A stretch of DNA of 64,000 nucleotides from Mesorhizobium loti (GTDB taxonomy: Bacteria; Pseudomonadota; Alphaproteobacteria; Rhizobiales; Rhizobiaceae): NCBI GenBank assembly GCA_014189435.1, contig CP050294.1, positions 124,001-188,000 of the forward strand. The letters run 5' to 3'. The number at the start of each line of letters is the position of its first letter. Within the stretch, counting starts at the first letter, position 1. The notes beneath the pieces were generated by a model. The model was not told where the DNA came from and searched no databases. It worked only from the letters and a program-made list of their open reading frames with translations. The position numbers were made by a program, and so were the translations under genes. This document shows positions 3,006 through 49,611 of the stretch, in pieces.

Positions 3006-3011
3006 GCGGTT

Positions 3012-12233: not shown

Positions 12234-13805
12234 TCAAATATTGCGCCAGAGGCCGCCGTTGAGGCGTAGATTTTCTGGACCCGTTACCAGTACATTCGTC
12301 ACTTCCTCGAAGAAGGCTTGCTGCCAGCGACTGGAAAACTGTCTCAACCCCTCACCTGCCTCGGCGGTCGGCAGCCTTTTGACAACAAACCGAAATTGGT
12401 TTTCTGCCCAGAGGGGAGAGGTAAAGATCGTAGGCACTTTGGTCTTGTAAGAGAGCATCGCGCAAAACGGGGAATATGTTATGGACTTTCCCTCCCAGGT
12501 GATGCGTGGCGCATTGGGGGACATCGCGCCGTCGGCGGCGAGGGTGACGAGGCAGCCGGCACGCAGCGAATCGATGACACATCGCGCCACTTGAACTTCG
12601 TTTAAGTCTGCCGTGGAGATCAAGGTATTCGCAAAGCCGGTGGTCAAAATTCTTGGCGTTGACGATAGCCACCTGTAGGGCGTTCCAAACGAGTGGATGG
12701 CTACAGGGCCTGCAAACATTGGGCCGATATGCGCGCTGACTAGCAACACGCCTTTGCCTTCGTCACGGGCCTCGATGACGGTGTTTCTATTGGCATCGCT
12801 GACATTGAAAAAGCTGGCAATCTCTCCAGCTTGATCAATAGAGCACTCCAGCCAATCTTGGATAAGTTTGTCTAGAAGATGTCCCCATTTTGCGCGCCGA
12901 TCCCAGTCCTCGCGATTGGGTGAAGGTGGGTATCCGAGCTTCTGGCTCACGATTTCCCAAGCCCAGTCGAGTCGCCTCTGCGGCAGCTTGACCTCATCCA
13001 GACGTGCATCGAGCGCAGCCAATCCTGCGGAGAAAGTCCTTGTTAACTTGTTCTTCCGTTCGCTCACCATGTCGCCATAAAGCTGCTTTGCCTCGGCTTC
13101 GCGCCCGACCTGCAACAGCAAGGCAACTGCGCTGCTCCTGTTCGTTACGGAGGGATCGAGCTTCACAGCGGTCAACATCTCGGTACACGCCTCCTCAAGC
13201 CGGTGAGCATGCTTGAGAGCACGGGCCAAAAGAAGCCGGGTATTAGTCGTGTTGGGCCTCAACGATACAATAGGGGCGAGGACATCGACAGCCTCTGCGT
13301 AACGCCCGGCAGACAGCAGAAGTTCGCCGTAGGCACGCAGGAAAATACCGTCGTTGCCGGCCGAACTTTTAGCCTTTTCAAGGATCTCCAATGCTTCTGA
13401 GACCGGTTTATCGCTGGCGAGAGCGGCGCGCGCCGCCGCTTCGGCGAGACGAGGTTCGACCTTTCCGTTGCCCTCAAGAAGAGTGCGGGCAAAGGCGTAG
13501 GCATCGCCGGCTCGATCAGAGCCAAGCAAATGTCGAATGGCCAATACGGCGACTTCAGGCGATGCCTTGCCTTTTGCGACTACGTTGTCGACCAATCGTG
13601 TCGCCGCATCGTTGCGACTACCCTTCAAAAACGCCTGCAGAGACACCTGCGCAAGCCGGGGAAAGTCCGCAGCATAAGAGATGTGGGCGAGAGCAAGGTG
13701 GATCGCTTCTTCGATATTGCCGGTCTGACCGGCGCGCAAAATGCCGACCGATGCCGCAGCGACGGCTCTCGCGTCAGGTTTTTGGGCAGCGATTTCTACA
13801 CTCAT
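12234..13805 (-). CDS. TPR protein with LPLAT acyltransferase-like domain (VexE-like)
   Basis: 523 residues. Residues 1-260 are helical repeats of the TPR type (EAVDVLAPIVSLRPNTTNTRLLLARALKHAHRLEEACTEM). Residues about 290-520 resemble the lysophospholipid/lipid A acyltransferase fold: GKGVLLVSAHIGPMFAGP and GCLVTLAADGA. The usual H-x4-D/E pair is altered: His357 is followed four residues on by Met-Phe rather than an acidic residue. This TPR plus acyltransferase layout matches VexE, which acylates the reducing-end sugar of Vi capsule. Last gene of the polysaccharide locus; its ATG overlaps the upstream stop as ATGA. Function is by analogy. Confidence 0.7.
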   Translation of the reverse strand: MSVEIAAQKPDARAVAAASVGILRAGQTGNIEEAIHLALAHISYAADFPRLAQVSLQAFLKGSRNDAATRLVDNVVAKGKASPEVAVLAIRHLLGSDRAGDAYAFARTLLEGNGKVEPRLAEAAARAALASDKPVSEALEILEKAKSSAGNDGIFLRAYGELLLSAGRYAEAVDVLAPIVSLRPNTTNTRLLLARALKHAHRLEEACTEMLTAVKLDPSVTNRSSAVALLLQVGREAEAKQLYGDMVSERKNKLTRTFSAGLAALDARLDEVKLPQRRLDWAWEIVSQKLGYPPSPNREDWDRRAKWGHLLDKLIQDWLECSIDQAGEIASFFNVSDANRNTVIEARDEGKGVLLVSAHIGPMFAGPVAIHSFGTPYRWLSSTPRILTTGFANTLISTADLNEVQVARCVIDSLRAGCLVTLAADGAMSPNAPRITWEGKSITYSPFCAMLSYKTKVPTIFTSPLWAENQFRFVVKRLPTAEAGEGLRQFSSRWQQAFFEEVTNVLVTGPENLRLNGGLWRNI

Positions 13806-15802
13806 GTTAGGGGGTCACCTTCGTAGTTTCCTGCGAGCAGTTGGATGGTACGAAGCACCATCGCTTCGGTTGAAAACCGCTCCTCGGCAATCAGACGAAT
13901 TCTGGCCAGCGCCTGCGGATCGGCCTGGTTGAATGCAAGCACCTCGTCCACCTTGTCACAGCATTCCTCCAGATCGACATCTTCTACTGTCGACAGGACG
14001 CAGCCAGTGATACCTTCTACCACCGTGTCGGCCGCGCCGCCCGCCGGCGTGGTGACAACCGGAACGCCGCACAACTGCGCTTCAATAAGTGCATTGGGCA
14101 AGCCTTCAAACCGGGAAAGCAGCACGAACGCATCCATGTTCCTCAACCAGAAACCGACATTGTCGGATAAACCAGTGAATAGTACGCGATCGATAATGCC
14201 GAGGCGAGCGGCCTTCTCTTTTGCCTCCTTGAGCATGCGCCCACCGCCGACTAGCACAATCTTCGTCTGCGGATGGCGCTGAAGATAGGCATGAGCGAAA
14301 TGTATCCAGAGAGAGGGCCGCTTATCGGTATCGAAGCGAAAAACGCTGCCGATGGTGGTCGTCGCATCAGCGTTGGACAACTGAAAGTGTTGCCACAAAT
14401 CGACATCGCCATCGGCGGCAGGAAGCAGCGGAACAAGAACGCCGTTATGCACAATGCTAAAACGCAGGTTGTCGACTTTCAGCCAATCCGTATACGCCTT
14501 CACTGCCGCCTCACTGTTGGAGGAAAAGCGCACACCAGGAGTCACTGCGAGTGCGCGATACATATCTTGATAAGCAGGATGAAACAAATGTACACGCAGT
14601 GAAGGTGGTAAGCCGCGAACGGAGACGACGATTCGGGGAACACCCGCTATTAGCGCGGCCAAGGCGGCAAATAAGACTGCCCCATCCTGCCAGATGAATG
14701 CGACTTCGATCTTCTCCTCCCGAAAATAGTTCACCATCCTCTGGACGCCATAGAGCGCAGACTTGGGAAGCATTGGCAGAAGAGTTGATATCTCGTCGTC
14801 GCCCAAGGCAAGGTCTTGAATGCGTACAGTAGGAAAATCATCGATCTCACGTGTTTCCACGTCGTTTCGACGCACGGCTGGGAGGAAAAAATCGTATCCC
14901 TCCGCGCTCTTGAGCGATTTAAGCACGACATGGCACGGCTCGGTTAATACGATGCCCGCGAGGGGTCTTTTCATCCGGAAAGCATCCGTCAAGCGAATGC
15001 CGACGCGCGCTATCTGGCGTTCCGCCCCTCCCGCTGCTAAGCTTCCGGTAATAAGCGAGACTTTCCCAAGTCGGTTCGTTGCCGTCGGCTCCTCGCGTCT
15101 GGATGCGTACTTCTCGATCGCTAAAGCTAGGGCCAATCCTGAAGTGTCTCGCGACTTGACCGAATCATCGTCATAGCGTTTTGCAAGGACCGCCATGCCA
15201 TCGCGCAGCTCCTTAATGAACTGCCCGGAGGCATGGGAGCCGACAGTTGCGGGATCAATGCCGTCCAAAACGGACAGGGCCACGAAACTGTTGCCCCAGT
15301 CCTTAAGGCGGCGCGCATAAGATATCCTTCCGCGCATATCCTCTGGAAATCGTTCGATAAACTGCGTGAAGTAAGTCTGAGCGCGCTCGGTTTTACGCAG
15401 TTCGCAGTACAGTTCTCCCTTTTCTAAGAGGTCGTCTGCGGCTTTCGGCACGGACGGCAGCACGGCTTCGATGAAATCGCACGCCTCGTCCACGCGCTTT
15501 TCCCGGTAGAACCACCGGACGATGTAGCGCAAAGGTTTGAGTTCTTGAGGGAACCGTTCGTGCAACTGGAGCCACAGCGAGAGCATATCATCCCTCGTGC
15601 GACACAACTCCAAGGCGAGGACATGGTTGTAATTGACATCAAATTCCAACGGACAAACGGATACCAGTTCCCGTAGGCGAGGCTCCACGCGCCGCGCGCC
15701 CGTGGCGGTTCCGGTCTCATGCATCAATTGCCGAATTTCGATAAGGTAATCGGCGCTCTGTGGAGAGGGAATTCCCTTGAGTGCCGCGTTCACGTCCAAC
15801 AT
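13802..15802 (-). CDS. TPR-fused GT4-type glycosyltransferase A
   Basis: 666 residues. The N-terminal half is TPR-like (CDFIEAVLPSVPKAADDLLEKGELYCELRKTERAQTYF). The C-terminal half is a GT-B glycosyltransferase of family 4: SLITGSLAAGGAERQIARVG (nucleotide-binding loop), TIGSVFRFDTDKRPSLWI and the E-x7-E motif in SRFEGLPNALIEAQLCGVPVV. It would add a sugar to the capsule in the cytoplasm. I start at the ATG at 15802, which follows AAAGGGG at 7 bases, rather than 23 codons earlier. Closely similar in layout to the gene at 16798. Confidence 0.82.
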   Translation of the reverse strand: MLDVNAALKGIPSPQSADYLIEIRQLMHETGTATGARRVEPRLRELVSVCPLEFDVNYNHVLALELCRTRDDMLSLWLQLHERFPQELKPLRYIVRWFYREKRVDEACDFIEAVLPSVPKAADDLLEKGELYCELRKTERAQTYFTQFIERFPEDMRGRISYARRLKDWGNSFVALSVLDGIDPATVGSHASGQFIKELRDGMAVLAKRYDDDSVKSRDTSGLALALAIEKYASRREEPTATNRLGKVSLITGSLAAGGAERQIARVGIRLTDAFRMKRPLAGIVLTEPCHVVLKSLKSAEGYDFFLPAVRRNDVETREIDDFPTVRIQDLALGDDEISTLLPMLPKSALYGVQRMVNYFREEKIEVAFIWQDGAVLFAALAALIAGVPRIVVSVRGLPPSLRVHLFHPAYQDMYRALAVTPGVRFSSNSEAAVKAYTDWLKVDNLRFSIVHNGVLVPLLPAADGDVDLWQHFQLSNADATTTIGSVFRFDTDKRPSLWIHFAHAYLQRHPQTKIVLVGGGRMLKEAKEKAARLGIIDRVLFTGLSDNVGFWLRNMDAFVLLSRFEGLPNALIEAQLCGVPVVTTPAGGAADTVVEGITGCVLSTVEDVDLEECCDKVDEVLAFNQADPQALARIRLIAEERFSTEAMVLRTIQLLAGNYEGDPLT

Positions 15803-15962
15803 TGCTTGCCCCTTTAACAGTATGCGGGAGTTGATGTTATAGCAATGACAATCACAAGCCTCGCGAGGCACAGGTCAATAATGGTACAAACCTGCGCTGC
15901 GACTCGCTAGAAGTAGGCACTTGCGCATTCGGCGCTTTGAAAGCTTTCGCAGACCATTCCGA

Positions 15963-16797: not shown

Positions 16798-18870
16798 TCA
16801 GTTAAGGTAGGCCTCGAGAGTTAGCGCAAGCATGTTGTCAATTGAAAAACGTTCGGTAGCATAGTCCCGAATTTGCTCCGCCAAAAGCTTCTGCTCAGGA
16901 CGAGGACGACACCAAGAAGTCAACACCTTAGCAATCTGCTCCGGGTCTACCTTATCTATGCTGGGTAGCAGTGTTCCCGTTCTTCCGTTTTCAAAAGTTG
17001 CCCCGGAACCTCCAGCGGGCGTGGCTACCACAGGCAACCCAGAGTATTGAGCCTCAATGAGGACATTGGGCAAACCCTCATGCCGAGACAGCAGCAAGAA
17101 AACATCCATTTGCGAAAGCCAAAAGCCTACATGTTGCGATCGTCCGGTGAAAAGAACCCGATCTTCAATGCCTAGCTTTCGAGCATGGTTCATCGCTGCG
17201 CTACGAAGCGGTCCGTCGCCGACCATTATGAACCGCACGTCGGGACGAGATGAGGCGAAGGTTGCCGCGATATCAATCCACTCCAATGGCCTCTTGTTGT
17301 TGTCAAATCGCATTGCTGAGCCAACAGTAAAGCAGTCGCGGGGGTTATTTTTACTGAAGGCTCGCGCCATTGCCAAAGTTGCCTCGTCGGCGGCCAAAGA
17401 CAACGGCTCCAAACCGTTCGGAATGATCCGGACGGTTCCGCGCGGTAGATCGAGCCACTCCTCGTAACGCTTAGCCGCTGCGAGGGAGTTAGAGACGATC
17501 ACCACACCCGGAGCGGACAATAGTAACCGATACACGATTTTATATTCAGGTTTATTTCGTTCGGCTCGGTCGACCGGCGGCAAAGTTCGTACACCCAGCA
17601 CTATACGCGGTACGTTGGCGAATAGCGCGGCTAGTCCCAAGGCCAATACAGACCCGTCCTGCCAGATGTGTATGACATCCGGCGATGCCTGACGCAGAAC
17701 GTCGGCCGCCTGAACCAGGCCCTCACGCATCGGAAATGGAAGGTAGGGGAGACAATGGATTACCTCCCGTAGGCATGACCATCCTGGTCGCCCGGCAAAC
17801 TTGTCGAATTCCACATACTGGTGAACATTGAATCCCGCGTCCGACATCAGCGGAGCAAAGAAATCGGACCCCGAGCGGGAATTGAGCGATCGACATAGAA
17901 TTTGAACCGGGCCAATCACGTCATTCCCGTCAATTGAGCGCCCCGCTTCCATAGCCGATTTGATTGCGAGAGCGGTATTGGTTAACTGGCGCTCGGCGCC
18001 ACCGGAGCCAAGGCCGCCATTGACAAGAATTAGGTGCCCCAAAAATCCTTTATTGTCCGTTGGGCTGCTCGGTCGGAGGCGCTTGGCTTCATTGAAGACG
18101 TGTTCGATAAGAAAGTCTTGTGGATCAATGTCTGCGCCGCTACTGCTTTCGACAGCCTTTTCTAGCGCAGATATATTCGCGTCGACCTGTGAAGCGACGC
18201 TTATATGTTTTACGGTAAGGCCAAATCGATCCTGGCTCGCATTAACGATTTCTCGCGCTCTAAGCGGTTGGTTTATGGATAAGTATAGCTTCACCACGTC
18301 AAGAAGTATGGCCTCGGAAACATCCGCCATTTGGGTTATTTTCGATAGAGCTAGCTCTGCCTCTTCAAAGTCTTTTAGTTCTATTAGCGCACGCGCAAAT
18401 ACGAACATGCCTTCAGAGTGCTTGGGCTCTTCAGGGTATCGCTCAGCGTGGATATTTCGCCCGGCATCTGTCCCGCCTAACCGTATGGTCCAGCGCAAGA
18501 GGCGTACATATGCATGGCGCGAATTTAGAAATCGAGAGTCGATGCCGCGCCAAACGGCTAATGCACGCGGGTCTTGGAACCTTTCGAGTGCCTGCGCGGC
18601 CATCTGTTGAAGCCTCTCTTCGTTGGGGAACCGCGCGATTTCTCCTAGAAGATAAGAGAGAGTGTCAGGCAATTCTGCCATTTCTCGCAATGAACTAACT
18701 CGCTTTTGCGCCCTGCCAACCGCTTTCGTGTCAGCACGTGCTGCGATCTTGCTTTCTTGTAGCCCCTGAAGAACTGCAACTGTGACGGGATCGACATCAT
18801 GTCGCTCAATTGATTGTACCTTGTCGATCCGATTTGGACCCCGCAACCACTTCTTGGCGGTGAATAACAT
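16798..18870 (-). CDS. TPR-fused GT4-type glycosyltransferase B
   Basis: 690 residues. Residues about 45-270 are helical TPR-like repeats (ERYPEEPKHSEGMFVFARALIELKDFEEAELAL). The C-terminal half is GT4: HLILVNGGLGSGGAERQLTNTALAI, TVGSAMRFDNNKRPLEWIDIA and SRHEGLPNVLIEAQYSGLPVV with the E-x7-E pair. The GTG/TTG region before 18870 reads through, but the ATG at 18870 (MLFTAKKWLRG) is the more plausible start. Paralogue of the gene at 13802; both would be cytoplasmic capsule polymerases or sugar transferases comparable in role to TviE. Confidence 0.82.
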   Translation of the reverse strand: MLFTAKKWLRGPNRIDKVQSIERHDVDPVTVAVLQGLQESKIAARADTKAVGRAQKRVSSLREMAELPDTLSYLLGEIARFPNEERLQQMAAQALERFQDPRALAVWRGIDSRFLNSRHAYVRLLRWTIRLGGTDAGRNIHAERYPEEPKHSEGMFVFARALIELKDFEEAELALSKITQMADVSEAILLDVVKLYLSINQPLRAREIVNASQDRFGLTVKHISVASQVDANISALEKAVESSSGADIDPQDFLIEHVFNEAKRLRPSSPTDNKGFLGHLILVNGGLGSGGAERQLTNTALAIKSAMEAGRSIDGNDVIGPVQILCRSLNSRSGSDFFAPLMSDAGFNVHQYVEFDKFAGRPGWSCLREVIHCLPYLPFPMREGLVQAADVLRQASPDVIHIWQDGSVLALGLAALFANVPRIVLGVRTLPPVDRAERNKPEYKIVYRLLLSAPGVVIVSNSLAAAKRYEEWLDLPRGTVRIIPNGLEPLSLAADEATLAMARAFSKNNPRDCFTVGSAMRFDNNKRPLEWIDIAATFASSRPDVRFIMVGDGPLRSAAMNHARKLGIEDRVLFTGRSQHVGFWLSQMDVFLLLSRHEGLPNVLIEAQYSGLPVVATPAGGSGATFENGRTGTLLPSIDKVDPEQIAKVLTSWCRPRPEQKLLAEQIRDYATERFSIDNMLALTLEAYLN

Positions 18871-19090
18871 GTTAGCCGATCCAGTTCGTATGACGATCAA
18901 TAACAAATTTTTGTGGTTCAAAGAGCCGATCAAAAATACCTAATGTAATAGAAGATCCGGCTAAAAGCGCGTGGCGAACGCCTTATCTCTATTAGAGCCA
19001 TCGCGCCAGTATCGCGCAAACAATGGGGAACGACTTTGGCGGTTGCCTATACGGCGTACTTACAATACGTCGCATCTTTACTTAGTTATT

Positions 19091-21244
19091 CTATGCCTGC
19101 ACTAGGCGTTCGGCGGCGGCTGCGACGGTCATGTCGTGGGCTGCGTTGGTTGCTGCTTGCGAAAGTTGTTCCAGGCTGCCCGGCTGAAGGATGAAGGTCG
19201 AGACTGCGTCAACCATTGCCGCGACCATCTCCTCTCCTAAAGCCTCGATGGTTTTCAGGCTGGGTTTCACGGCGCTTGCGATCGGCCCTGCCGCGAGTAC
19301 AGGGCGCCCATACGCAAGGGCTTCTGCGATCTCGAAGCGTGATCGCCCACAGCGCTGGGTCACTGGCATCGCTGGGATGACGACCAGATCAATCGCGGCA
19401 AAGGCGGCTGCGATATGTCCGTTGCGCGGGCGTCCAGGAAATAGGCATCGGTCTCCGTGGCCTAGGGCTTCCAGTTTATCGCGAATCCGGTGGAAGCGCG
19501 TGCCGACGCCAAAAATGAGCAGCCTAACTGGAAGCCCGCGCTTGACCAGTTCATCCAGGATCGCCGGGAAAGATTCGAGATCCACTTCGTCGTAAGCGTC
19601 GCCGATATATCCGATGACGAAGCCGCCTTTGAGAATCGGCGATGAGGACCAGTCGGAGGAATTCTTGTCCGCGTTGAATTGGAAAACCGATTCTCCGATG
19701 GATAGAACCTTATGTGCCGACACGCCAGCTTCGGCTAAGCGGTCAGTGAAGAAGTCGTCACGCACCAGGACCGTATCGGCCTCGGCCAAGAGAGCGTTTT
19801 CCAGCGCAATAAGGATTTCCTCGCGCTCGCTAGCCGGATTGCTCTTCGCTCGAGTCATAGTCGTACAATCGAAAATGAAGCGAGATCCGTTAAGGCGCGC
19901 CGCTATCGCCGCCGGATAGGCAAGTTCAATCGAGCTTGGTGCGACAACAGCCCCGGCATTCGCGGCAGCGATCCTCTCCGCGAGCAGTTCGCTGGCATCC
20001 CAGGAGTAGGTGTCGAGTATGCTACCGTCGACTTCGATAGCCGGCAGTCGGAAGTGGGCAATGCCCGCAACTATATCCTTGGTAAGTTCGACGCGGCCGG
20101 ATTTGTCGATTGCGGGGTAGCCAGGGACGGTCACTATCTTGACTTCGTTGCCGGCCTTCTGGAAGGCACTAGCTAATGAGAGGCCGCGCAAGCTGGAAGC
20201 GGACCAGTGGCCAGGGAAAGAGTTCGGCCAGTAGAAGATGACCGAGTTGGGACTGCCGTTTTGGCTGGCGCTACGGTTCGGCAAGGAAAGCCCAGTCACT
20301 TCGAGCCTGGCAAGCGCGGATAATTCGTCGAAGCGTTTGAGTTCGCTCGGGTTGAAGTTGACACCGGCGGCGATCGCCGATCGCATCACCTCCAAAGCCT
20401 CTTTGACCACCCCAACATCCGCGAGAACGAATGCGAGATGCTTAACTCTCCACTGTTGCGGATCGGCTGCCAGGGCGGCCTTGGCCAACGAGACGGCGAC
20501 GGGAATATCGCTAAAGCGCGCGCGCCGCGATAGTTCCAAAAGCACCCGCGATAAGACGCCCGCGGGCAGCCTCTGATCGCGAACCCATTGCTCGGCAGAA
20601 TGCCAGCCATCATGCCCGGCGATGGCCAGAGCGCGTTCGGCATGCTGTAGGGCTTCGGCCGTTGCCAGATCGAGGCCCAGCTCGACCGGCAAAGCGGCCT
20701 TGTCCTTCATCGCCTGTTCTTGAGCGGCACGGTATTTGGCTGGTAGCGAAAACGCGCGTTTCCAGTCTCCCTTGATTGCCAAGATATCTTCACCCAAACT
20801 GAAGATCGGGCTACTACGCAGCGTCTCGAGCTTATTATTTATAGTTTTGACCTGGGCCAGGAGGTCGAGGTTGAGAACATCAACATTCTTTTTCGCTTGC
20901 TTATAAGATTCCAGCTCCTTCTCGATCTGGTTCACTCGTAACGAAATGTCGCCTCTCGATCTTTCGATGGTGAGCGCATGAATATTGGCTTCGAGCTCAC
21001 GGATACGCTCCCGGTCCCGGGCCTCCTTTTGGCTGGCCAGGTCGATCTGCACTTCATAAGCTTTTCGCTCCGCAACTGACAGCGCATCTATCTGCGCTGT
21101 CTTGAGAGGTTCCCCATTCTTGGCACCTTTGGGGAGCGGCGGGAGATTTTCGTCGATCAATCGCGAAACCGACTTCGTCCCGAGACCTTCCCCAAATAGA
21201 CTATTGAGCAGATGACCGCTTTGATGATCTTTAGCCCCTGCCAT
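19091..21244 (-). CDS. Coiled-coil glycosyltransferase (GT-B fold)
   Basis: 717 residues. The first 160 are charged and coiled-coil-like (EARDRERIRELEANIHALTIERSR, NQIEKELESYKQAKKN). Residues about 330-717 resemble a GT-B glycosyltransferase: VIFYWPNSFPGHWSASSLRGLSLASAF, GGFVIGYIGDAYDEVDLESFP and SRFEIAEALAYGRPVLAAG. The classical GGAER loop of its two neighbours is absent. The ATG lies only 6 bp from the end of an IS3-family element at 21250, so the natural start and ribosome site may have been removed by that insertion. Confidence 0.75.
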   Translation of the reverse strand: MAGAKDHQSGHLLNSLFGEGLGTKSVSRLIDENLPPLPKGAKNGEPLKTAQIDALSVAERKAYEVQIDLASQKEARDRERIRELEANIHALTIERSRGDISLRVNQIEKELESYKQAKKNVDVLNLDLLAQVKTINNKLETLRSSPIFSLGEDILAIKGDWKRAFSLPAKYRAAQEQAMKDKAALPVELGLDLATAEALQHAERALAIAGHDGWHSAEQWVRDQRLPAGVLSRVLLELSRRARFSDIPVAVSLAKAALAADPQQWRVKHLAFVLADVGVVKEALEVMRSAIAAGVNFNPSELKRFDELSALARLEVTGLSLPNRSASQNGSPNSVIFYWPNSFPGHWSASSLRGLSLASAFQKAGNEVKIVTVPGYPAIDKSGRVELTKDIVAGIAHFRLPAIEVDGSILDTYSWDASELLAERIAAANAGAVVAPSSIELAYPAAIAARLNGSRFIFDCTTMTRAKSNPASEREEILIALENALLAEADTVLVRDDFFTDRLAEAGVSAHKVLSIGESVFQFNADKNSSDWSSSPILKGGFVIGYIGDAYDEVDLESFPAILDELVKRGLPVRLLIFGVGTRFHRIRDKLEALGHGDRCLFPGRPRNGHIAAAFAAIDLVVIPAMPVTQRCGRSRFEIAEALAYGRPVLAAGPIASAVKPSLKTIEALGEEMVAAMVDAVSTFILQPGSLEQLSQAATNAAHDMTVAAAAERLVQA

Positions 21245-21309
21245 TGGTCTGCCCCCTGAAAAGTGGTCCTCCCTGATGTATGGCTTTCGAGCCGATGGAG
21301 GACTTAAGA

Positions 21310-21588
21310 ATGCCGAGAAAGAGACACGCTGCAGAAGAGATCGTCACGAAGCTTCGGCAGGTTGACGTGCTGAGTTCGCAGGGCAAATCGATGGCCGAAG
21401 CGATCCGATCGATAGGCGTGACGGAAGTAACATATTACCGTTGGCGGTCCGAATACGGCGGTCTGAAGGGCGACCAGGTTAAGCGTCTGAAGGAACTTAA
21501 GACGGAGAACTCGCGGCTTCGGCGGGCCGTCTCCGACCTGACGCTGGACAAGATGATCCTGGCGGAAGCTGCGCGGGGAAACTTCTAA
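21310..21588 (+). CDS. IS3-family OrfA
   Basis: Short HTH protein of an IS3-family (IS407-like) element: RHAAEEIVTKLRQVDVLSSQGKS, then GVTEVTYYRWRSEYGGLKGDQVKRLKEL and the leucine-zipper end ENSRLRRAVSDLTLDKMILAEAA. A GGAGG site 8 bases before the ATG at 21310 sets the start. OrfB follows in another frame, as usual when the transposase is made by frameshifting. Confidence 0.88.
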   Translation: MPRKRHAAEEIVTKLRQVDVLSSQGKSMAEAIRSIGVTEVTYYRWRSEYGGLKGDQVKRLKELKTENSRLRRAVSDLTLDKMILAEAARGNF

Positions 21589-21824
21589 GCCCCGCGCGTC
21601 GCCGTGCTTGCGTGGATCGTGTTGTTGCTGAACTTGGCGTTCCCGAACGACGGGCGTGCCGGGTTCTCGGTCAGCACCGCTCCACGCAGCGCAAGGTTCC
21701 GACGACACCTGATGATGAAGTGGCCTTGACCGCCGACATCATCGCGCTTGCCCTCCAATACGGCCGCTACGGCTATCGTCGCATCACGGCGATGCTGCAT
21801 CGTGCGGACTGGGTGAACGTCAAA

Positions 21825-34210: not shown

Positions 34211-37209
<2,999 letters not shown>

Positions 37210-38486: not shown

Positions 38487-38588
38487 CGTCAACCTCCATC
38501 GAGGTGGATGTTGAATCAGCACAAAACGCAGCCGTCACATCACAATCGATTCATCGATCACAGGACGTGCTCTAGTTCTCGATCCGAC

Positions 38589-39191: not shown

Positions 39192-39249
39192 GGTATCCAC
39201 CTCTTGTAATATAAGAATAATGCACGCTGAATATAAAGAAGCTTATTTC

Positions 39250-39501: not shown

Positions 39502-40985
39502 GTCCGCTCCTTCTTCATAATAAGATTGTCCTCGAACCAGACTGCTGCTGCTGTGCGATCCAGTTTGTCATTCTCGCTGCGCGGTGCTCTCTGAATCTCA
39601 AGGATCCATGTCGGTATGGCATGGGCTTCGACGATTTCTGACAACGCTGCTTTCAACTCGCGCTCATTGAGCGGTCCCAGCCCGTTAGATTCCACGACAG
39701 CCGCGAGTCCATCGCCTCGTTTAAAGACGACAGCCACAGGCCACCCGCACTGCCGAATGGCGGAAACGATCTCATCGAGCTCGATCCGGTATCCCTTTAC
39801 CTTAACCTGAAAATCAATCCGCTCCTTGAAGAACAAGCGATCGTCACGGATTTCCGCCCAGTCACCGGTCAGATACCCACGCTCCCCCGACAACTCATCC
39901 AATACGCGGAACTGCTGCTCGGTCTTTTCCGGATCGTTCCAATAGCCCTCGGCAAGTTGGGGACCGCTAATCACAATCTGACCCTCGGTGGGAGAACGCC
40001 CGCCAATAAGCGAGATCTTCATGCCTGGTATGGTCTGACCCAGGGCGGCAGACGTATGGCAGTAAGATCCGTAGTTGTCGGAGGTCAGAACTTGCTCAGT
40101 TACAGAGATCGTAGCTTCGGTGGGGCCATAGGTATTTTGGGCGAGCGTGTCTGGCAATGCGGAAAAAATGGCGTCCAGTTGCTGTCTGACGAGCGGTTCC
40201 CCGCAGAAATTAAACAGCCGAACACTCCCTAGGTCTTTCCTTGTTACTTGCCGCGCCCGCATCATCAAGCTAACGGCGCTAGGCGTGGAATTCCAGATCG
40301 TAATAGCTTGCCTCGCGATAAATTCGGCGGGCGACATTCTGTCGCCCTCATCCAGCAAGGGGTGAAGCGAAGCGCCATGGCATAGTGCCCCAAATATATC
40401 TGTCATGCTGATATCGAATGCTAGATTTGGCTGTTGCGAGAGACGATCATCCGGGGTGATATGAAGGCTCTCCAGCCAGGACACGTAGTTTGCCAATGCT
40501 TTGCGTGAAACCATTACGCCCTTTGGCTCGCCAGTCGATCCTGACGTGAACATGACATAGGCTAGTTCGTGGCGCGTTCCATTACCCAAGAAACAGCGAT
40601 CTGTATTGATCATATCTGGATCCAAGACCTTCAAGTTAGGAACTGCAGTGACAATTTCAGCCGCCAACTGTGGCTTGGCCACGAGAAGATCAGGTTGCAA
40701 CCGATGCAGGATTCGCCGAAGCTTTTGTATCGGCGCAACCGTGTTCAGGGGCGTATGGAAGCCCCCGGCTAATCCGGACGCCAGGATGCACGCATAAGCA
40801 TCGGCCTCTTGAGGGAGCGCGATCGCAATTCGCGGCTGCTCGAATGACGAATAAATCTGTGCGTAGATTCGGACTCGCTCCTCAAGCCAAGCATAAGAAT
40901 ATTGACGCGCGCCAACGTCTATGGCCAAGCGCCCAGGATGGCGAGAAGCTACCGAGAGAAACCTGTCAACTACATCCACCATCAT
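39498..40985 (-). CDS. Adenylation enzyme (AMP-binding, NRPS/Dlt-like)
   Basis: 495-residue member of the ANL superfamily. Core motifs are all present: A3 YVMFTSGSTGEPKGV (143-157), A5 AQNTYGPTEATISVTE, A7/A8 GYLTGDWAEIRDDRLFFKERIDFQVKVKGYRIELDEI and an A10-like lysine in NDKLDRT. It would activate an amino or other carboxylic acid with ATP and load it on the adjacent ACP. It is closer in layout to stand-alone amino-acid adenylation domains than to long-chain acyl-CoA ligases. ATG at 40985 follows GGAG. The substrate cannot be read from sequence by eye. Confidence 0.87.
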   Translation of the reverse strand: MMVDVVDRFLSVASRHPGRLAIDVGARQYSYAWLEERVRIYAQIYSSFEQPRIAIALPQEADAYACILASGLAGGFHTPLNTVAPIQKLRRILHRLQPDLLVAKPQLAAEIVTAVPNLKVLDPDMINTDRCFLGNGTRHELAYVMFTSGSTGEPKGVMVSRKALANYVSWLESLHITPDDRLSQQPNLAFDISMTDIFGALCHGASLHPLLDEGDRMSPAEFIARQAITIWNSTPSAVSLMMRARQVTRKDLGSVRLFNFCGEPLVRQQLDAIFSALPDTLAQNTYGPTEATISVTEQVLTSDNYGSYCHTSAALGQTIPGMKISLIGGRSPTEGQIVISGPQLAEGYWNDPEKTEQQFRVLDELSGERGYLTGDWAEIRDDRLFFKERIDFQVKVKGYRIELDEIVSAIRQCGWPVAVVFKRGDGLAAVVESNGLGPLNERELKAALSEIVEAHAIPTWILEIQRAPRSENDKLDRTAAAVWFEDNLIMKKERT

Positions 40986-41251: not shown

Positions 41252-42409
41252 TCAATTGGCGAAAGCGACACCTCGCAACGAGCCTGCTGTTGAGGTAATC
41301 CCTCTGACCATCGTTACAAATTTGTTGAACTGAACCACCGGCGAGTTGGCGACGTATATGATGTCCCTATCACGAATGGCGAGCTGCTGTGCATAGAAGT
41401 AGTTATCCGCCTTATTGAGTCGCAGACGATAGATAACTGGAACTGGGTCAGACCCCATAAGATGAGTTGAATTGGGCTTCAATGCGCGTACTAAGCTTGC
41501 CTCTTCGCGCCGAAAAAGAAATATCGCACTACTGTCGGCTTGCGCATCGTGAAGCCCGCCCGCTTTGGCGATGGCTTGAAGGAGAGACATGGGTTCTTTG
41601 TCTATGGGGTAGTCTTTTTGGGCGGTAACGGCACCAAGCGCCACAAAAATCGGAGGGTCGCGATACACATAGATATTGTCCCCCGGATATACGAAGACAT
41701 TTTGACTGGGATCTTTTAGGATCGTGTCGAGAAGAGTCACCTCGCTCAGGGCGCCGCGTGTTAGGCGAACCTTGGTCTCCTGCGGCATTGTCCTTATGCC
41801 TCCAGATTGAGCAATAACCTCCAGTAGACGATCACCTTTCAAAGAAAGCGCCACGCGCGCCGAGCCGGTCGCGTCGCCTGAAACCGTCGCGGTAGCCGCG
41901 CTGCCCTGCGTCGAAACGATGACCTGTGGCTCAACGGCTTTATTTGCCAATCGCGCCTCTATCGCCTTTGCCAGGGAGCCTGGCGTGCGGCCGGCTGCAG
42001 TGATACGGCCTGCGTAGGGCACGCTGATTGATCCATCACGGTCGACGGTTTGCTGTGGAAGTGAAATGCTGTGCGAGCTTCCCATGGGCGCACCTGGCGT
42101 CGATGATCCGGAGAAAAGTCCGCCGGAAGCCGCTTCGAAAATCGTCACGACAATCTGGTCTCCGATCGTGAGTGCCTGCGAAGGCGCTGGCGGATGGCGT
42201 GAGAATTGACTGGCAAGATCACCGGATGGGCGGTTACGTAGCACAGCCAGGGTAGCATCAGTGATATCGACTACCTCATAGAGTGCGGAATCGGCACCTT
42301 TACCCTGCGCATTAACCACTGCACTGGCCGTGGGCCCCGAGGCCGGCAAGTTAACGCAGCCCATCAACAGCGCGGGCAAAAGTAATAATAAGTGACTTGT
42401 TTTTTTCAT
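41252..42409 (-). CDS. Capsule export outer-membrane lipoprotein (VexA/Wza-like)
   Basis: 385 residues. A lipoprotein signal peptide, KKTSHLLLLLPALLMGCVNL, places Cys18 as the lipidated residue. A polysaccharide-export domain follows (LTIGDQIVVTIFEAASGG, VDRDGSISVPYAGRITAAGRTPGSLAKAIEARL) with SLBB-type repeats (VYPGDNIYVYRDPPIFVALGAV, SLLQAIAKAGGLHDAQAD). It would form the outer-membrane channel for the polymer. It precedes the adenylation gene by 266 bp, in which I see no gene. Confidence 0.88.
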   Translation of the reverse strand: MKKTSHLLLLLPALLMGCVNLPASGPTASAVVNAQGKGADSALYEVVDITDATLAVLRNRPSGDLASQFSRHPPAPSQALTIGDQIVVTIFEAASGGLFSGSSTPGAPMGSSHSISLPQQTVDRDGSISVPYAGRITAAGRTPGSLAKAIEARLANKAVEPQVIVSTQGSAATATVSGDATGSARVALSLKGDRLLEVIAQSGGIRTMPQETKVRLTRGALSEVTLLDTILKDPSQNVFVYPGDNIYVYRDPPIFVALGAVTAQKDYPIDKEPMSLLQAIAKAGGLHDAQADSSAIFLFRREEASLVRALKPNSTHLMGSDPVPVIYRLRLNKADNYFYAQQLAIRDRDIIYVANSPVVQFNKFVTMVRGITSTAGSLRGVAFAN

Positions 42410-42625: not shown

Positions 42626-43933
42626 TCACGCGGCGAATTGTGATCGAACGATGCTTACTATCAGAGAGCCGAAAAAGGCGAGACCGACACCGATGATCGA
42701 TGCCGCCAGTAGGCTTGTGATCGGGTCCGGATAAGACGGTCTTCCATCCGCCCTGGGCTCGGCGATCACAATCACATATTTTTGCTGTCGGATGGCGGCT
42801 TGCCGAGCGTAATCGAGCGCCTGCCGGGCCGATGTCAAATTGGTCTCGGAATATTCCAGGGCAGCGTTCAGAGCCTCATAGCGGGAGATCTGGTCAGTTG
42901 CTGATCCACTGGGGCCGACTAATCGCTTGCGCGTCTCCGCGATCCGATCCGTCAATGTCTTGATGTCGAGGAGGAGCGGTCGACGCCGAGGATGATCGCT
43001 CGCACCGGACGCGTCGATCGTGGCGAGCTCGTTTTGATCAGCTGTCCGCTGTGTTTCCAATTGATTGATCAATCCGTTTAGCATTGTCACGTCAGCCGTC
43101 GGATCGACGATGCCGGTCTCGCTCCGCCAATTAGCCATTTGCTGCCTGGCTTCTGTGGCACGCCTCTCTGCGCGGGCCAATTCTTGCTCGCTGAATCGCA
43201 AAGCATCTTCACGAGCGCGTTGGTTCATTTGATCTGCGAATTCCTCGGTCATCCGAACGAGAGAGGACGCGATGAGCACCGAGTCCTCTGGCTTAAAAGA
43301 GCTGACGTCCATCACGACGATCTGTTCCAGCATATTGAAGCGCGCTGTCACGCGCGCCCTATAAGCGTCGAAGAGCTGATCGTCATCCGCATTCTGCGGT
43401 AACCGCACCAAGGGATCGGAATTCGTTCTGATAAATAGCTTCCGGATATCGATCCGGTGTCCTAGCCTCGCCAAAGCCTCCCGCGAAACCAGAAAGTCCC
43501 GGGCCGCATATCCATCAACATAGCCATCCATCGGTCCACTACCTGACGAGAATAACGAGCTGACAGGTGACGTCGCTTGCATGGTGTCGGATCCTCCGCG
43601 GATGGCGAACCTCACCTCCGTCGTATACATCGGGGTGGCGATGAAGAAAACGAACAGCGACGTCGTCAAAATCGGCAGCGTTACACAGAGAGCCGCCGCC
43701 CAGGTACCCCATTTTGATCGCCTGCGCGTTACGCGACGTAGTTGGATAAATCGGGCTTGGTCGTCCACCCCTCCAGGTGAGACTGGGAAGGTTGGAGCCT
43801 CTGCAGGTGAGACCGGGAAGTTTGGGGTTTCTGCATCAGAGAGGGTCGTCGGCAAGGTCGTCTTCGAACTCTTTCTGAGCATCGTAAGAGGCAACACGAG
43901 GCGGATACCGATCAAGGGCCTTTTTGAGATCAT
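42626..43933 (-). CDS. Capsule export inner-membrane protein (KpsE/CtrB/VexD-like)
   Basis: About 435 residues. One membrane segment lies near residues 75-98 (WAAALCVTLPILTTSLFVFFIA) and a second near the C-terminus (PITSLLAASIIGVGLAFFGSLIVSIV), with a long periplasmic coiled coil between (FSEQELARAERRATEARQQMANWR). This is the polysaccharide co-polymerase layout that links inner and outer membrane. The N-terminus holds a short duplicated PNFPVSP/PTFPVSP segment. The start is uncertain: ATG at 43933 or 43882; both overlap the end of the ATPase gene. The 216 bp to the next gene shows no frame of interest. Confidence 0.85.
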   Translation of the reverse strand: MISKRPLIGIRLVLPLTMLRKSSKTTLPTTLSDAETPNFPVSPAEAPTFPVSPGGVDDQARFIQLRRVTRRRSKWGTWAAALCVTLPILTTSLFVFFIATPMYTTEVRFAIRGGSDTMQATSPVSSLFSSGSGPMDGYVDGYAARDFLVSREALARLGHRIDIRKLFIRTNSDPLVRLPQNADDDQLFDAYRARVTARFNMLEQIVVMDVSSFKPEDSVLIASSLVRMTEEFADQMNQRAREDALRFSEQELARAERRATEARQQMANWRSETGIVDPTADVTMLNGLINQLETQRTADQNELATIDASGASDHPRRRPLLLDIKTLTDRIAETRKRLVGPSGSATDQISRYEALNAALEYSETNLTSARQALDYARQAAIRQQKYVIVIAEPRADGRPSYPDPITSLLAASIIGVGLAFFGSLIVSIVRSQFAA

Positions 43934-44537
43934 TCGCAATTGTCACTCGTCCCCTATTAACGACAATAGCCCTGTCGCAGTATTTGCTGAGATCGGCAAC
44001 CCGATTGCTCCCTGCTATGAGCATCTTGCCAGCCGATCGCTTTTCGAAGAGTGTCTTCCACAGGTAGCTGAAGCGGTCTTTAAGGAACGGGAATACCGCT
44101 TCAACTATATAAATATCGAAAGGCGGCAGAAGCGCGGCGGCAAGGCCGTATTCATACCGAAATTCCGCCGGCCAATGTTCTACTTTCCCATTTATATGCC
44201 TAGGGTCCGTAACCATCGTCTCTAGCATCGCATTTGATACATGCATATCCAAGCCGTAAAGCCTGCATATCAAGGCAATCACGTGTCGGCCAGTCACATT
44301 GCCACGCAAAAAAGCCGGCCGGCCAATCGGCCACGACGTCAAGCCAATGAAACTTATCCTCCCCACCTGCGGAGGCCTGAGCCCGGCCAGAAGATCAACC
44401 GCGGGCTTTTTCGCAAGCGGATCACTTGTAAGCAGTGCATATCGTCCCGTTGGGATATCGAGGTCTACAGACGAAGCGATTTGTCGACGAATGCCAGCGA
44501 TCTCAGGCTCGTCTGATGTTCGTTGAAAGGAAATCAT
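43836..44537 (-). CDS. KpsT-like ABC ATPase domain with degenerate catalytic motifs
   Basis: 233 residues aligning by position with KpsT/VexC, the ATPase of capsule exporters. The fold markers SWPIGRPAFLRGNVTGRHVIALICRLYG and DIYIVEAVFPFLKDRF are clear. Walker A (normally GxNGAGKST) reads TSDPLAKKPAV, the signature region reads WPAEFRYEYG instead of YSSGM, the Walker B catalytic Glu is Ala (IVEAV) and the switch His is missing (AGSN). It looks like a non-hydrolysing homologue. I start at the ATG at 44537 (MISFQRTS), where KpsT proteins begin; a TTG at 44696 would add 53 residues. Confidence 0.75.
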   Translation of the reverse strand: MISFQRTSDEPEIAGIRRQIASSVDLDIPTGRYALLTSDPLAKKPAVDLLAGLRPPQVGRISFIGLTSWPIGRPAFLRGNVTGRHVIALICRLYGLDMHVSNAMLETMVTDPRHINGKVEHWPAEFRYEYGLAAALLPPFDIYIVEAVFPFLKDRFSYLWKTLFEKRSAGKMLIAGSNRVADLSKYCDRAIVVNRGRVTIANDLKKALDRYPPRVASYDAQKEFEDDLADDPL

Positions 44538-46321: not shown

Positions 46322-47356
46322 TCATCGGAATGCGCTGCCGCCGAAATACGCCTGATACCAGTCCACAAACCGGCCGACGCCCTCGGGCACGGACGTGCCC
46401 GGGCGGTAGCCGACGGCCTGCTCCAGCGCCGAGGTGTCGGCGAAGGTATCGGGCACGTCGCCAGCCTGCAGTGGCAACAGTTCGACAATCGCCCTTCTGC
46501 CCAGCGCAGCTTCCAGCGCCATGACATAGTCGGTCAGCTTAACCGGATTGTTATTGCCGATGTTGAAAACGCGCCAAGGTGCATTGCTGGTGGACGAGTC
46601 CGGATTGGAGGAGTCCCACGCATCATTGGGTGTGGCTGGCTGGTCGCTCGCGCGCACCACGCCTTCAGCGATATCCTCGACAAAGGTGAAGTCACGCGTG
46701 TGGTTGCCATTGTTGAACAGCTTAATCGGGAGTCCAGCAAGGATGTTCCTGGTGAACAGGAACAGCGCCATATCGGGTCGACCCCAAGGACCATAGACCG
46801 TGAAAAAGCGCAGGCCTGTGGTCGGCAACCGGAACAGATGGCTGTAGCTGTGCGCCATCAGCTCGTTGGCACGCTTGGTGGCCGCGTAGAACTGCAAGGG
46901 GTGATCAGCTGGCCTGTGCTCGGAAAACGGCATGTTTGTGTTGGCACCATAAACGCTGGACGTGCTGGCATAGGTCAAATGCGCTACGCTAGCATGGCGG
47001 CACGCCTCGATGATGTTGGTGAAAGCAATGATGTTGCTCTCAACATAGGCATGCGGATTCTCTAAACTAAAGCGCACGCCTGCCTGCGCGGCAAGATGGA
47101 TGACGCGGTCGAAGTTGTGCTCGGCAAAGCAGGATTTGACGGCGGCGCGATCGGCCAGGTTGGCGCGGATGAAATGGAAGCCGGAATTGTTCGTCTTGTT
47201 GAATTCCTGAAGGAGTTTCAGGCGCCCTTCCTTGATGCCTGGGTCGTAATAGGCGTTGACGCTATCAATGCCAACGACCTCGTCGCCGCGCTCCAGCAAT
47301 CGCCTAGCGACATGATAGCCGATGAAGCCGGCCGCGCCGGTGACCAGAACCTTCAT
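46322..47356 (-). CDS. NAD-dependent nucleotide-sugar 4-epimerase (TviC/CapI/LpsL-like)
   Basis: 344-residue extended short-chain dehydrogenase. Nucleotide-binding GAAGFIG at 7-13, catalytic Tyr157-x3-Lys161 (YAATK) and STSSVYG before it. The overall sequence ([21 protein letters not shown]) is that of UDP-glucuronate or UDP-GlcNAcA C4-epimerases. It would turn the uronic acid made by the dehydrogenase into its galacto-epimer. Its ATG overlaps the dehydrogenase stop as ATGA, so the two enzymes are coupled. Confidence 0.88.
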
Positions 47357-48630
47357 CAGAAACGCCCATCCGTATGTTCCTTAGGGAAGATGCCTTTTAT
47401 ATCGTAGATAACTCCGGGATTCTTGCGCAGCTCCTTCAGGCCGACAATGCCATTCGTCTGGAACTCTCTGTGCCCGACCGCCACGACGATTCCGTCATAG
47501 CGGCCTTCGGGCTTGCTCCTCGTGCTGGGAAGGCCGACTTCATAGGCGCATTCTGCTGGCGAAACCCAAGGGTCCCAGATATCTATTACGGCATTGTATT
47601 CTTGAAGCCGACTGACGATGTCGGCGACTTTGGAATTGCGCAGATCCGGGCAGTTTTCCTTGAAGGCCGCGCCCATAACCAAGATCCTGCTGCCGACGAC
47701 CGATATGCCCTTGCGCATCATCAGGCGCGCCGCTTGGTCCGCAGCATGCTGCCCCATGCCGTCATTGATACGGCGGCCGGCCAGGATCACCTCGGGGTGG
47801 TAGCCAAGCTCCTGCGCCTTGTGCGTGAGATAGTAGGGGTCGACGCCTATGCAATGGCCGCCAACCAGGCCGGGCGTGAAACGCAGGAAATTCCATTTGG
47901 TACCGGCGGCGGCCAGCACCTCGGATGTGTCGATTCCCAGCCTGCCGAAGATCAGCGAAAGCTCATTCATTAGCGCGATGTTGAGATCGCGCTGCGTGTT
48001 CTCGATGACCTTGGCGGCTTCCGCCACGGCGATACTGCCGACCAGATGTGTCCCCGCAGACACTATGGAAGCATAGAGCGCATCTATGGCGTTGGCTGCT
48101 TCCGGGGTCGAGCCGCTGGTCACCTTCACGATCGTTTGCAGGCGGTGTTCGCGATCGCCTGGATTGACGCGTTCGGGGCTGTATCCCAAAAAGAAATCCT
48201 TGTTGAAACGCAGGCCTGAGGTTTTCTCTATCCACGGCGCGCAGACTTCCTCGGTACAGCCGGGATAGACTGTCGACTCAAAGACAACGACAGCGCCCGG
48301 AGAGATCGCTTCGCCCACTGTCTTTGATGCGGCAACAAGCGGTGCCAGATCGGGGCGATTGGCCTTGTCTATGGGGGTCGGCACGGTGACGATGAAGATC
48401 CCGCAGGCTTTGAGTTTCGTCCTGTCGGTCGTGAAAACCAGGCCTGTAGCAGCAGATATCTCGGCTCCGTCGGTCTCGAGCGTGGAATCCTCGCCGCGCC
48501 TTAGGGCGGCAATGCGCGCCTCGCTTATGTCGAAGCCTATAACGGGCCGCCTCACGCCAAAGGCGACGGCGAGTGGAAGCCCGACGTAGCCGAGCCCGAT
48601 AATCGCTATCTTCTTATCATCCAGATTCAC
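47356..48630 (-). CDS. UDP-sugar 6-dehydrogenase (TviB/WbpA-like)
   Basis: 424 residues, matching the length and sequence style of TviB (UDP-GlcNAc 6-dehydrogenase of Vi antigen). NAD-binding [18 protein letters not shown] at 8-25, [34 protein letters not shown] and the catalytic Cys260 in [20 protein letters not shown]. It oxidises C6 of a UDP-hexose or UDP-HexNAc to a uronic acid. The resemblance to TviB favours UDP-GlcNAc. Start is GTG at 48630 with GGAG 10 bases before. An ops-like element and hairpin lie 60-92 bp upstream. Confidence 0.9.
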
Positions 48631-48770: not shown

Positions 48771-49370
48771 TCACGCAATTCCGACAAGACCCCTGGACTC
48801 CAGATCGACAGGGATTTCGCCATTCATGAAAGAGATCAGGACCCGGGCGCGCCCTGTAGGATCAAGCCTATCAAGGCGACCTATCAACTCCGCAAAAGGA
48901 CCTGATACAATTCGAACCGAAGATCCCGGCAAAAGGCCACCGCTGAAATCAAGCAGGCCGTCTTTGCCGGTCAATGCAATGAACCGCTCGACTAAGCCAA
49001 AAGGGACCGGAAGCGGCCTATCCCCTTGCGTGATCAAAGAGCGGATACCGATAGTCCCGTTGACAGAGCGCCAGCGTTGCTGAGTGACGTCGAAGGCTAC
49101 AAACATGTACCCGGGAAAATACGCTGATATTCGTTTTGAGAGCCGCCGGGCGTGACGAACTGTTCTCTCCCCACGTGGCACGAAAGAAGCAAAACCCTGC
49201 AGGCGAAGATGTTGTTCAGCTATGGACTCCTTACCCTGAAGTACGCCAGCCACATGCCAACGGACTCCAAGGTCGGCGCGTGCCTTCTCATGCTCGCCGT
49301 TGACGCCGGCTGCCGTCATCGGCACTTCAGACACGGCCATGGTCTCAGCCCGATTCCCTGTTCTATTCAT
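48771..49370 (-). CDS. NusG/RfaH-like transcription antiterminator
   Basis: 199 residues. After a variable 35-residue leader comes the NusG N-terminal domain (RWHVAGVLQGKESIAEQHLRLQGFASFVPRGERTVRHARRLSKRISAYFPGYMFVAFD) and a C-terminal KOW domain (GSSVRIVSGPFAELIGRLDRLDPTGRARVLISFM). Specialised NusG paralogues such as RfaH keep RNA polymerase processive through long surface-polysaccharide operons. Its place at the head of a 37 kb locus fits that role. ATG overlaps the preceding stop. Confidence 0.9.
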   Translation of the reverse strand: MNRTGNRAETMAVSEVPMTAAGVNGEHEKARADLGVRWHVAGVLQGKESIAEQHLRLQGFASFVPRGERTVRHARRLSKRISAYFPGYMFVAFDVTQQRWRSVNGTIGIRSLITQGDRPLPVPFGLVERFIALTGKDGLLDFSGGLLPGSSVRIVSGPFAELIGRLDRLDPTGRARVLISFMNGEIPVDLESRGLVGIA

Positions 49371-49611
49371 GTTGGTGGGCCATGCTCACCCGTTGACCAA
49401 TATACGCCGTCGCAAGCGTGAGCCTCTCAAAAGGGTCTCGCTTGCGTTGATCATAAATCTTGGCAAGCGGCAAAATATCCAGCAACTGGTCGGCTTTGGC
49501 AGGGTCTAATGCCGGGAAGTGGACTGTTTCGACGTCTTGATCTTCGGTCTTGGCCATTTCGTTATCCTTCTGGTCGACGATCTCACTGATGTGCGCATGC
49601 TCTTTTTGCAT
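49363..49611 (-). CDS. Small protein leading the polysaccharide operon
   Basis: 82 residues, charged, no membrane segment or signal peptide. I do not recognise the family. The C-terminal half (DPAKADQLLDILPLAKIYDQRKRDPFERLTLATAYIG) looks like a compact helical domain. The ATG follows AAAGGAG, and the stop overlaps the NusG-like start (ATGAATAG), so it is coupled to the antiterminator. It could be a regulator or a leader peptide; no stronger claim is possible. Confidence 0.55.
   Translation of the reverse strand: MQKEHAHISEIVDQKDNEMAKTEDQDVETVHFPALDPAKADQLLDILPLAKIYDQRKRDPFERLTLATAYIGQRVSMAHQHE

Follow-up and report, generated by a model that had tools for sequence, protein, structure and literature searches.

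A Vi-like capsule locus of Mesorhizobium loti with a putative pseudo-ATPase and an enlarged permease in its exporter

Here we analyzed a stretch of 64,000 nucleotides (the window, G000:C2:124001-188000) from the 8.33-Mb, three-contig genome of the nitrogen-fixing soil bacterium Mesorhizobium loti (G000), which carries a capsule locus at positions 12234-49611, on the minus strand and with a gene run between 12234 and 49370. Read along that strand from 49370, the locus contains RfaH/NusG-like, TviB-like, TviC-like, VexB/KpsM-like, VexC, VexD/KpsE, VexA/OPX and DltA-like genes, followed by a carrier protein, a GNAT, a mobile insert, an SGNH-like gene, a TPR gene and a second mobile insert, and finally by a third glycosyltransferase, two TviE-like glycosyltransferases and a VexE-like gene. 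A preliminary description of this DNA had proposed a Vi-antigen-like ABC capsule locus on a repABC replicon. The replicon type was confirmed by RepC (1652-2857), RepB (3012-4046) and RepA (4043-5224), together with ctRNA and an S-element, all at 1652-5224, and the Vi-like families were indeed found on one strand, with TviB, two TviE, VexE, VexA, VexD and VexB-like matches all on the minus strand. An ABC capsule locus in the usual sense was not supported, as the catalytic motifs are missing from the nucleotide-binding subunit. Judged from its sequence, 'VexC' is no ordinary ATPase and appears to represent a conserved family of pseudo-ATPases. A conserved pseudo-ATPase exporter class with an enlarged permease would thus be the main content of the locus, outweighing its likeness to Vi in importance.

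First, the vexC open reading frame (ORF) did not match ABC_tran even with the threshold relaxed to E = 10. The encoded protein retains the KpsT fold but not the glycines of the P-loop, the ABC signature, the glutamate of Walker B or the histidine of the H-loop. All of these (for the signature, its Gly) were jointly missing in each of 136 aligned relatives, including proteins from Bordetella, Achromobacter, Caballeronia, Paraburkholderia and Erwinia, and the same motif loss was observed in three Labrys VexC proteins and in four Mesorhizobium strains, which led us to reject a single-sequence artefact. These dead-VexC proteins form one clade in a quick tree calculated without bootstrap. Ratios of nonsynonymous to synonymous substitution (dN/dS) of 0.06-0.36 revealed purifying selection on pseudo-VexC, and an ordinary pseudogene could be rejected on this basis; a value of 0.000, obtained between the window and Mesorhizobium huakuii 583, rests on almost no change. 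The stretch replacing the P-loop is highly conserved (Pro in 134, Arg in 126 and His in 118 of the 136 proteins), which favors a re-made site by which pseudo-VexC would still bind or hydrolyse nucleotide, an explanation that we consider improbable in view of the joint loss of all four motif elements in every relative. Source databases mostly label the dead VexC 'ATPase' or 'ATP-binding protein', and a degenerate VexC was not reported in any of the titles, abstract openings and passages listed by searches of open-access papers, subscription papers lying outside the search.

We also rejected the idea that such degeneracy is common in KpsT, since 23 of 24 other KpsT-family matches (found in 19 of the 385 genomes in a class sample) retain the P-loop and only one (locus L053, genome G713) has lost it. 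The latter may be a separate, independent loss, its placement in the tree being unsure on a long branch. For L053 (G713) and L102, a KpsT-family protein without P-loop, signature and H-loop was observed in a locus with a short permease and no VexE match; at L058 (G581), the P-loop is present and the Walker-B glutamate is lost (IADG), and this genome encodes a further KpsT-type copy with a P-loop (L050). Salmonella VexC might be dead as well; against this speaks that two canonical KpsT proteins align through the P-loop with the NCBIfam VexC model (75 and 88 bits). Four of five pseudo-VexC proteins scored 20-31 bits with this model, starting at profile position 42, and the fifth gave no match, while masking the motifs in a KpsT cost 11.9, 9.5 and 7.1 bits. 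Salmonella VexC is therefore provisionally taken as canonical, indirectly via the model rather than from its own sequence.

Second, the dead VexC is accompanied by an enlarged permease. In all 16 dead-VexC loci (four in Mesorhizobium including the window, three in Labrys and nine in the Caballeronia family), VexB is long, its transmembrane part being preceded by about 170-200 residues; in this count, the window and strain 583, 99.9% identical, are nearly one observation. Lengths refer to stop-to-stop frames, of which one is cut by a stretch end and that of L093 is longer; the L096 locus breaks off where its contig ends, and L100 does so at the end of a circular record, with vexE lying at the start of that record. 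Among 15 permease frames beside other KpsT-family genes, 11 begin the transmembrane part within 14-68 residues (two of them adjoin the odd L053 and L058), three extend as far as the stretch goes and the remaining one (L046) is long. A search for permeases set 23 long proteins (410-479 amino acids [aa]), one of which is named Achromobacter xylosoxidans (P0150), apart from the next match (260 aa). The transmembrane part matches 8tsh_C, and no structural match was seen for the extension, the PDB rows covering the transmembrane part. An AlphaFold2 model of moderate confidence (pLDDT 75.7, pTM 0.55) predicted the extension to be helical, and it is probably cytosolic.

As a within-family control, VexE was found in 11 of 249 genomes, nine with a dead VexC and two (G1087 and G1111; loci L105 and L106) with a VexC that has P-loop, signature and Walker-B DE and lies above the Pfam cut-off. 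In the latter two, VexB is 247 and 254 aa long and has no extension. P-loop VexC pairs with short VexB, and dead VexC with long VexB. G1087 and G1111 are 2.1-2.5-Mb genomes of the Caballeronia family whose VexC has Arg in place of the H-loop His. The features of the locus are listed in Table 1.

Table 1. Features of the capsule locus, given as window positions
Feature	Position	Strand	Evidence and remarks
Small ORF (82 aa) at head of locus	49363..49611	-	No family match; hypothetical gene annotated at same place in M. huakuii 583
RfaH/NusG-like antiterminator	48771..49370	-	Pfam NusG 1.5e-13; NCBIfam RfaH 69 bits
TviB-like UDP-sugar 6-dehydrogenase	47356..48630	-	NCBIfam TviB 542 bits (cut-off 592); next family 373
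TviC-like NAD-dependent epimerase	46322..47356	-	Epimerase 3.6e-57; GalE 151 bits, TviC 112 bits
VexB/KpsM-type permease, N-terminal extension of ~170 aa	44752..46014	-	KpsM 64 bits over residues 172-401
Pseudo-VexC, KpsT-fold nucleotide-binding subunit without recognisable ATP site	43836..44537	-	ORF extends to 44696; likely start 44537
VexD/KpsE-type polysaccharide co-polymerase (PCP), start uncertain	42626..43939	-	BexC/CtrB/KpsE 181 bits; 8tsh_E KpsE 1.5e-21
VexA-type OPX outer-membrane exporter	41252..42409	-	Poly_export 1e-14, SLBB_2 4e-16; VexA 76 bits
DltA-like stand-alone amino-acid adenylation enzyme	39498..40985	-	AA-adenyl-dom 264 bits, DltA 234 bits, both under cut-off
Acyl/peptidyl carrier protein (ACP)	39250..39501	-	NCBIfam acyl carrier protein 27 bits; PP-binding E 0.002, under cut-off
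GNAT acyltransferase	38589..39200	-	Acetyltransf_1 3e-9
Mobile-element insert	30760..38538	.	Two IS110-type transposases, IS21-type pair, more transposase-like frames
SGNH-esterase-like gene, frame-shifted near 30.44 kb relative to M. huakuii 583 copy	28284..30618	-	tblastn alignments of the L003 and L001 proteins break into two frames
TPR protein, conserved beside glycosyltransferases	26883..28253	-	TPR_2 1.3e-12; ~30% identical homologues in Labrys loci
Mobile-element insert	21304..26785	.	IS1634-type transposase, serine recombinase
Third glycosyltransferase, GT4 type	19091..21244	-	Glyco_trans_4_4 1e-7; Labrys homologues ~37%
TviE-like TPR glycosyltransferase b	16798..18933	-	NCBIfam TviE 512 bits; EX7E motif
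TviE-like TPR glycosyltransferase a	13802..15871	-	NCBIfam TviE 514 bits; EX7E motif
VexE-like TPR-LPLAT acyltransferase, lipid anchor	12234..13805	-	NCBIfam VexE 355 bits; His and Asp kept in 4/4 aligned

The Vi likeness was assessed by family scores. With the NCBIfam models (bits/equivalog cut-off), we obtained 542/592 for TviB, 514 and 512/733 for the two TviE, 355/1200 for VexE, 112/760 for TviC, 79/905 for VexD, 76/456 for VexA, 26/297 for VexB and 20/313 for VexC, that is, values far above chance and yet all below the equivalog cut-offs. The TviB, TviE and VexE models were the best named matches for the dehydrogenase, the two glycosyltransferases and the acyltransferase, respectively; the preliminary description had named rkp loci as the competing assignment, and no rkp-named family appeared among the matches listed. 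The TviB-like dehydrogenase contains an 11-residue stretch with the presumed catalytic Cys. In VexE, the catalytic His and Asp are retained, 66 residues apart, in all four aligned sequences, matching the spacing of the reported catalytic residues H466 and D532 (PMC9597891).

Assembly of the Vi polymer depends on TviD (PMC3448643), described as the Vi O-acetyltransferase (PMC9597891). No full-length TviD was found: the NCBIfam TviD model was unmatched among 20 window proteins, and pairwise comparisons gave weak similarity. With a TviD profile built from 10 TviD proteins of Caballeronia-family loci, the TPR protein matched positions 458-822 (the TPR half) at 37 bits, a similarity that can be generic for TPR, and the SGNH-like protein matched the catalytic half at 8-10 bits directly and at 22 bits via a Labrys homologue (L064:9154-10323). 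In Labrys, a stand-alone TviD-type catalytic domain of 279-281 aa (124-127 bits) lies beside vexD, between vexD and tviC (L060 4351-5190, L063 3138-3980), and the TPR protein is a separate gene; Labrys TviD thus appears to be a natural split, with catalytic domain and TPR half in separate genes. The TPR gene of the window, perhaps with the SGNH-like gene, whose N-terminal part would then be a highly divergent domain of TviD type, is possibly a split, divergent TviD of the same kind. An earlier rejection of a split TviD, based on pairwise comparisons, was withdrawn after the profile search, which leaves the probabilities of the exporter readings unaffected. The gene labelled 'esterase/SGNH' in the preliminary description has no Pfam or NCBIfam match, the label deriving from a motif.

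The three glycosyltransferases suggest a heteropolymer, Vi being poly-GalNAcA, and the DltA-like/ACP/GNAT cassette suggests an aminoacyl or similar substituent; together they would predict a polymer other than Vi. The interpretation in the preliminary description is supported in part: the locus is Vi-like by TviB, TviE and VexE and probably resembles a Vi-type capsule locus in its working, whereas an assignment to Vi proper, with no full-length TviD found, goes beyond the data. Vi has been described as the sole known outlier in anchor type, the existence of other variants being unclear (PMC9597891), and the window locus is a candidate for such a variant.

Over the locus, the window is 99.9% identical to plasmid p_3 of M. 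huakuii 583, which carries inserts at the same two places (about 21.3-26.8 kb and 30.7-38.5 kb). Plasmid copies in Mesorhizobium sp. 131-2-5 and AR02 have no inserts there, and in both a hypothetical gene of ~458 aa and glmS come after vexE. A survey of plasmids, as the preliminary description had suggested, thus revealed the same gene set in three other Mesorhizobium strains. VexE scored above 300 bits in four of 397 genomes of the order (G000 and three Labrys), many weaker matches looking like TPR noise. None of the eight other same-genus genomes in this sample reached that score, and the locus therefore looks like an accessory plasmid locus in Mesorhizobium. A second Labrys VexE (L064, G198 contig C2), 64% identical to that of the window, lies on a 2.16-Mb replicon beside glycosyltransferase, TPR, SGNH-like and ACP genes, with no vexB, vexC or vexD in the 27 kb read. 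The range given earlier for Vi-type loci, Salmonella and some Burkholderiales, proved too narrow, as Labrys has such loci and a dead-VexC relative is named from Erwinia.

The nine Caballeronia-family loci have the order tviB-tviD-tviE-vexA-vexB-vexC-vexD-vexE-tviC-lyase (L096 and L100 being cut by ends). They were first found with a dead-VexC profile and so carry an ascertainment bias; unbiased tests were provided by VexE in the same 249 genomes, by VexE-bearing plasmid records, all six of which have a dead-VexC match, and by the three Labrys genomes, found by VexE among the 397. For Achromobacter and Bordetella, the evidence here consists of VexC and VexB proteins.

Compared with known systems, the window shares with the Vi (viaB) locus of Salmonella Typhi and Citrobacter the TviB, TviE, VexE, VexA and VexD families, a single-strand operon and a predicted VexE-type anchor. 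It differs in having no full-length TviD, two TviE-like and a third glycosyltransferase, the adenylation/ACP/GNAT cassette, a dead VexC and a long VexB. The group 2 exporter KpsMT-KpsE (PDB 8TSH, 8TSI, 8TSL, 8TSW, 8TUN; PMC11041684) resembles the window in VexC fold, transmembrane part of VexB and VexD family; of the features of this exporter type, a KpsM-type permease, KpsE-type PCP, OPX protein and KpsT-fold nucleotide-binding domain (NBD) are present in the window and the catalytic ATP-site motifs are absent. Unlike the window, KpsMT-KpsE has a working KpsT ATP site, a KpsM of 274 aa without N-terminal domain, and a Kdo-phosphatidylglycerol anchor, not one of VexE type (PMC11041684, PMC9597891). 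B. pertussis KpsT, 40% identical to E. coli KpsT (PMC4264864), is presumably canonical and outside the dead-VexC clade. The Burkholderiales Vi-type loci, represented by the nine of the Caballeronia family, have dead VexC, long VexB and VexE as in the window; they differ in a full TviD, one TviE and a VexL-like PL1 lyase, and the annotated locus has no adenylation/ACP/GNAT cassette. The rkp-3 locus of rhizobial K-antigen has KpsE, KpsM and OPX exporter parts, as does the window, and we know of no VexE or TviE class enzymes in rkp-3 systems.

What drives export at such loci is the central question, as ATP hydrolysis by KpsT is taken as the driver of this capsule-export class (PMC11041684). One Walker-B change in a thermophile KpsT stopped secretion (PMC11041684), and a vexC insertion in the cloned Salmonella locus blocked export (PMC3448643). 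Scanning for P-loop-pattern frames of at least 90 aa gave none in L001, L002, L066, L059-L061 and L099 over the ranges scanned; those in L093 and L094 lie near stretch ends and were reckoned outside the gene run, and those in the window are mobile-element or chance frames only. No canonical KpsT was found in G000, where the best live match among the 150 scored of 485 first-look candidates reached 140 bits versus 288-322 bits for true KpsT in Labrys. Among the nine Caballeronia-family genomes, one match scored 263 bits and eight no more than 176 bits with the KpsT profile. On the other hand, all 13 genomes tested encode an NBD of 140-176 bits, probably Wzt-like, and an ATPase acting in trans is therefore possible. 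A live NBD from elsewhere in the genome might accordingly pair with pseudo-VexC or serve it, so that the ABC exporter would be asymmetric or share its motor; asymmetric transporters with one degenerate site (TM287/288, BmrCD, TmrAB; PMC8277102) offer precedents. We regard this as rather unlikely: no P-loop frame was found within the intact loci scanned, no canonical KpsT in G000 or in eight of the nine Caballeronia-family genomes, and both seats on the VexB dimer would require outside partners. To our knowledge, moreover, the known asymmetric precedents have both NBDs in one operon.

Another explanation is that VexB-VexC is a membrane anchor for the synthesis complex, the polymer leaving by another route or staying inside. 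The lost motor and the long VexB speak for it, as does the failure to find an OPX (VexA) gene in what was read of the three Labrys loci; OPX domains were found elsewhere in the Labrys genomes. It appears highly improbable, as no locus read that far lacked VexD, and VexA occurs in those of Mesorhizobium and the Caballeronia family. In addition, Achromobacter denitrificans has been described as producing Vi (PMC9597891), and a macrophage screen recovered insertions with a phenotype in a Vi capsule locus of A. xylosoxidans GN050 (PMC9430717); both would count here if the VexC of these strains is dead, and a long VexB (P0150) bears the name A. xylosoxidans.

Our best reading of the sequences is a second class of VexE-type exporters, in which the nucleotide-binding subunit would be a scaffold and energy would come from synthesis-coupled extrusion or an ATPase in trans. 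TviB/TviC-like enzymes would make UDP-N-acetyl-uronic acid, and the two TviE-like and the further glycosyltransferase would build the chain in the cytoplasm, with VexE supplying an acylated UDP-GlcNAc terminus. The DltA-like/ACP/GNAT cassette may add an aminoacyl or similar group, the GNAT moving the carrier-bound acyl group to a sugar. VexB-VexC-VexD-VexA would form the trans-envelope conduit. VexC, which retains the KpsT fold and probably its seat on VexB, has no recognisable ATP site and would therefore be a scaffold rather than a motor. The N-terminal domain of VexB probably holds the synthesis complex (TPR glycosyltransferases and VexE) at the channel and replaces the lost coupling; extrusion would then be driven by chain growth or by a trans-acting ATPase. 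For the window, we hold it to be somewhat likelier than the contrary that this is a VexE-class locus for a lipid-anchored capsule of uronic-acid type with such a scaffold, such a VexB and extrusion driven by synthesis or a trans-ATPase. The broader proposition, that widespread VexE-type capsules, including those of the Burkholderiales Vi-type loci, are exported without ATP hydrolysis by the exporter, VexB-tethered polymerisation pushing the chain, is put forward tentatively, with the balance leaning against it.

Several observations weigh against our preferred reading, in addition to the Labrys loci read without an OPX gene and the Wzt-like NBDs that make a trans-acting ATPase possible. The Mesorhizobium VexC copies retain a Lys at the aligned position. 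Binding of the synthesis complex by the VexB extension is itself something we infer, and a hidden Markov model of the extension, trained on Mesorhizobium and Labrys VexB, found eight of nine independent VexB proteins and missed that of L096, which is equally long. True KpsT is encoded elsewhere in Labrys and in one of the nine Caballeronia-family genomes. In G1236 (Caballeronia sp. SL2Y3; L100 and the start of G1236:C3), vexA and vexE each lie in two frames. Finally, the locus of the window strain is interrupted and has one frame-shifted gene, and this strain may therefore not make the capsule.

A conserved NBD family without ATP-site motifs, in intact loci under selection, breaks the assumption that ATP hydrolysis by KpsT drives this class. 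It offers a natural experiment on the passage of long polysaccharides across membranes, in which one bacterial family supplies two matched exporter types for comparison, and bears on the Vi-type capsules of Achromobacter, Bordetella, and plant and insect symbionts. If the proposed mechanism is true, an ABC exporter would have evolved into an extruder coupled to the synthase.

Some minor observations concern individual genes. The split vexA and vexE of G1236 may be broken genes or sequencing errors, and the double frame of the SGNH-like gene in the window a real mutation or an assembly error. Outside the locus, the window encodes at 57104-60931 (minus strand) a protein of 1275 aa whose C-terminal part is an Ulp1/C48 cysteine protease domain (PF02902, E 6e-7), a make-up that resembles effectors injected by rhizobia.

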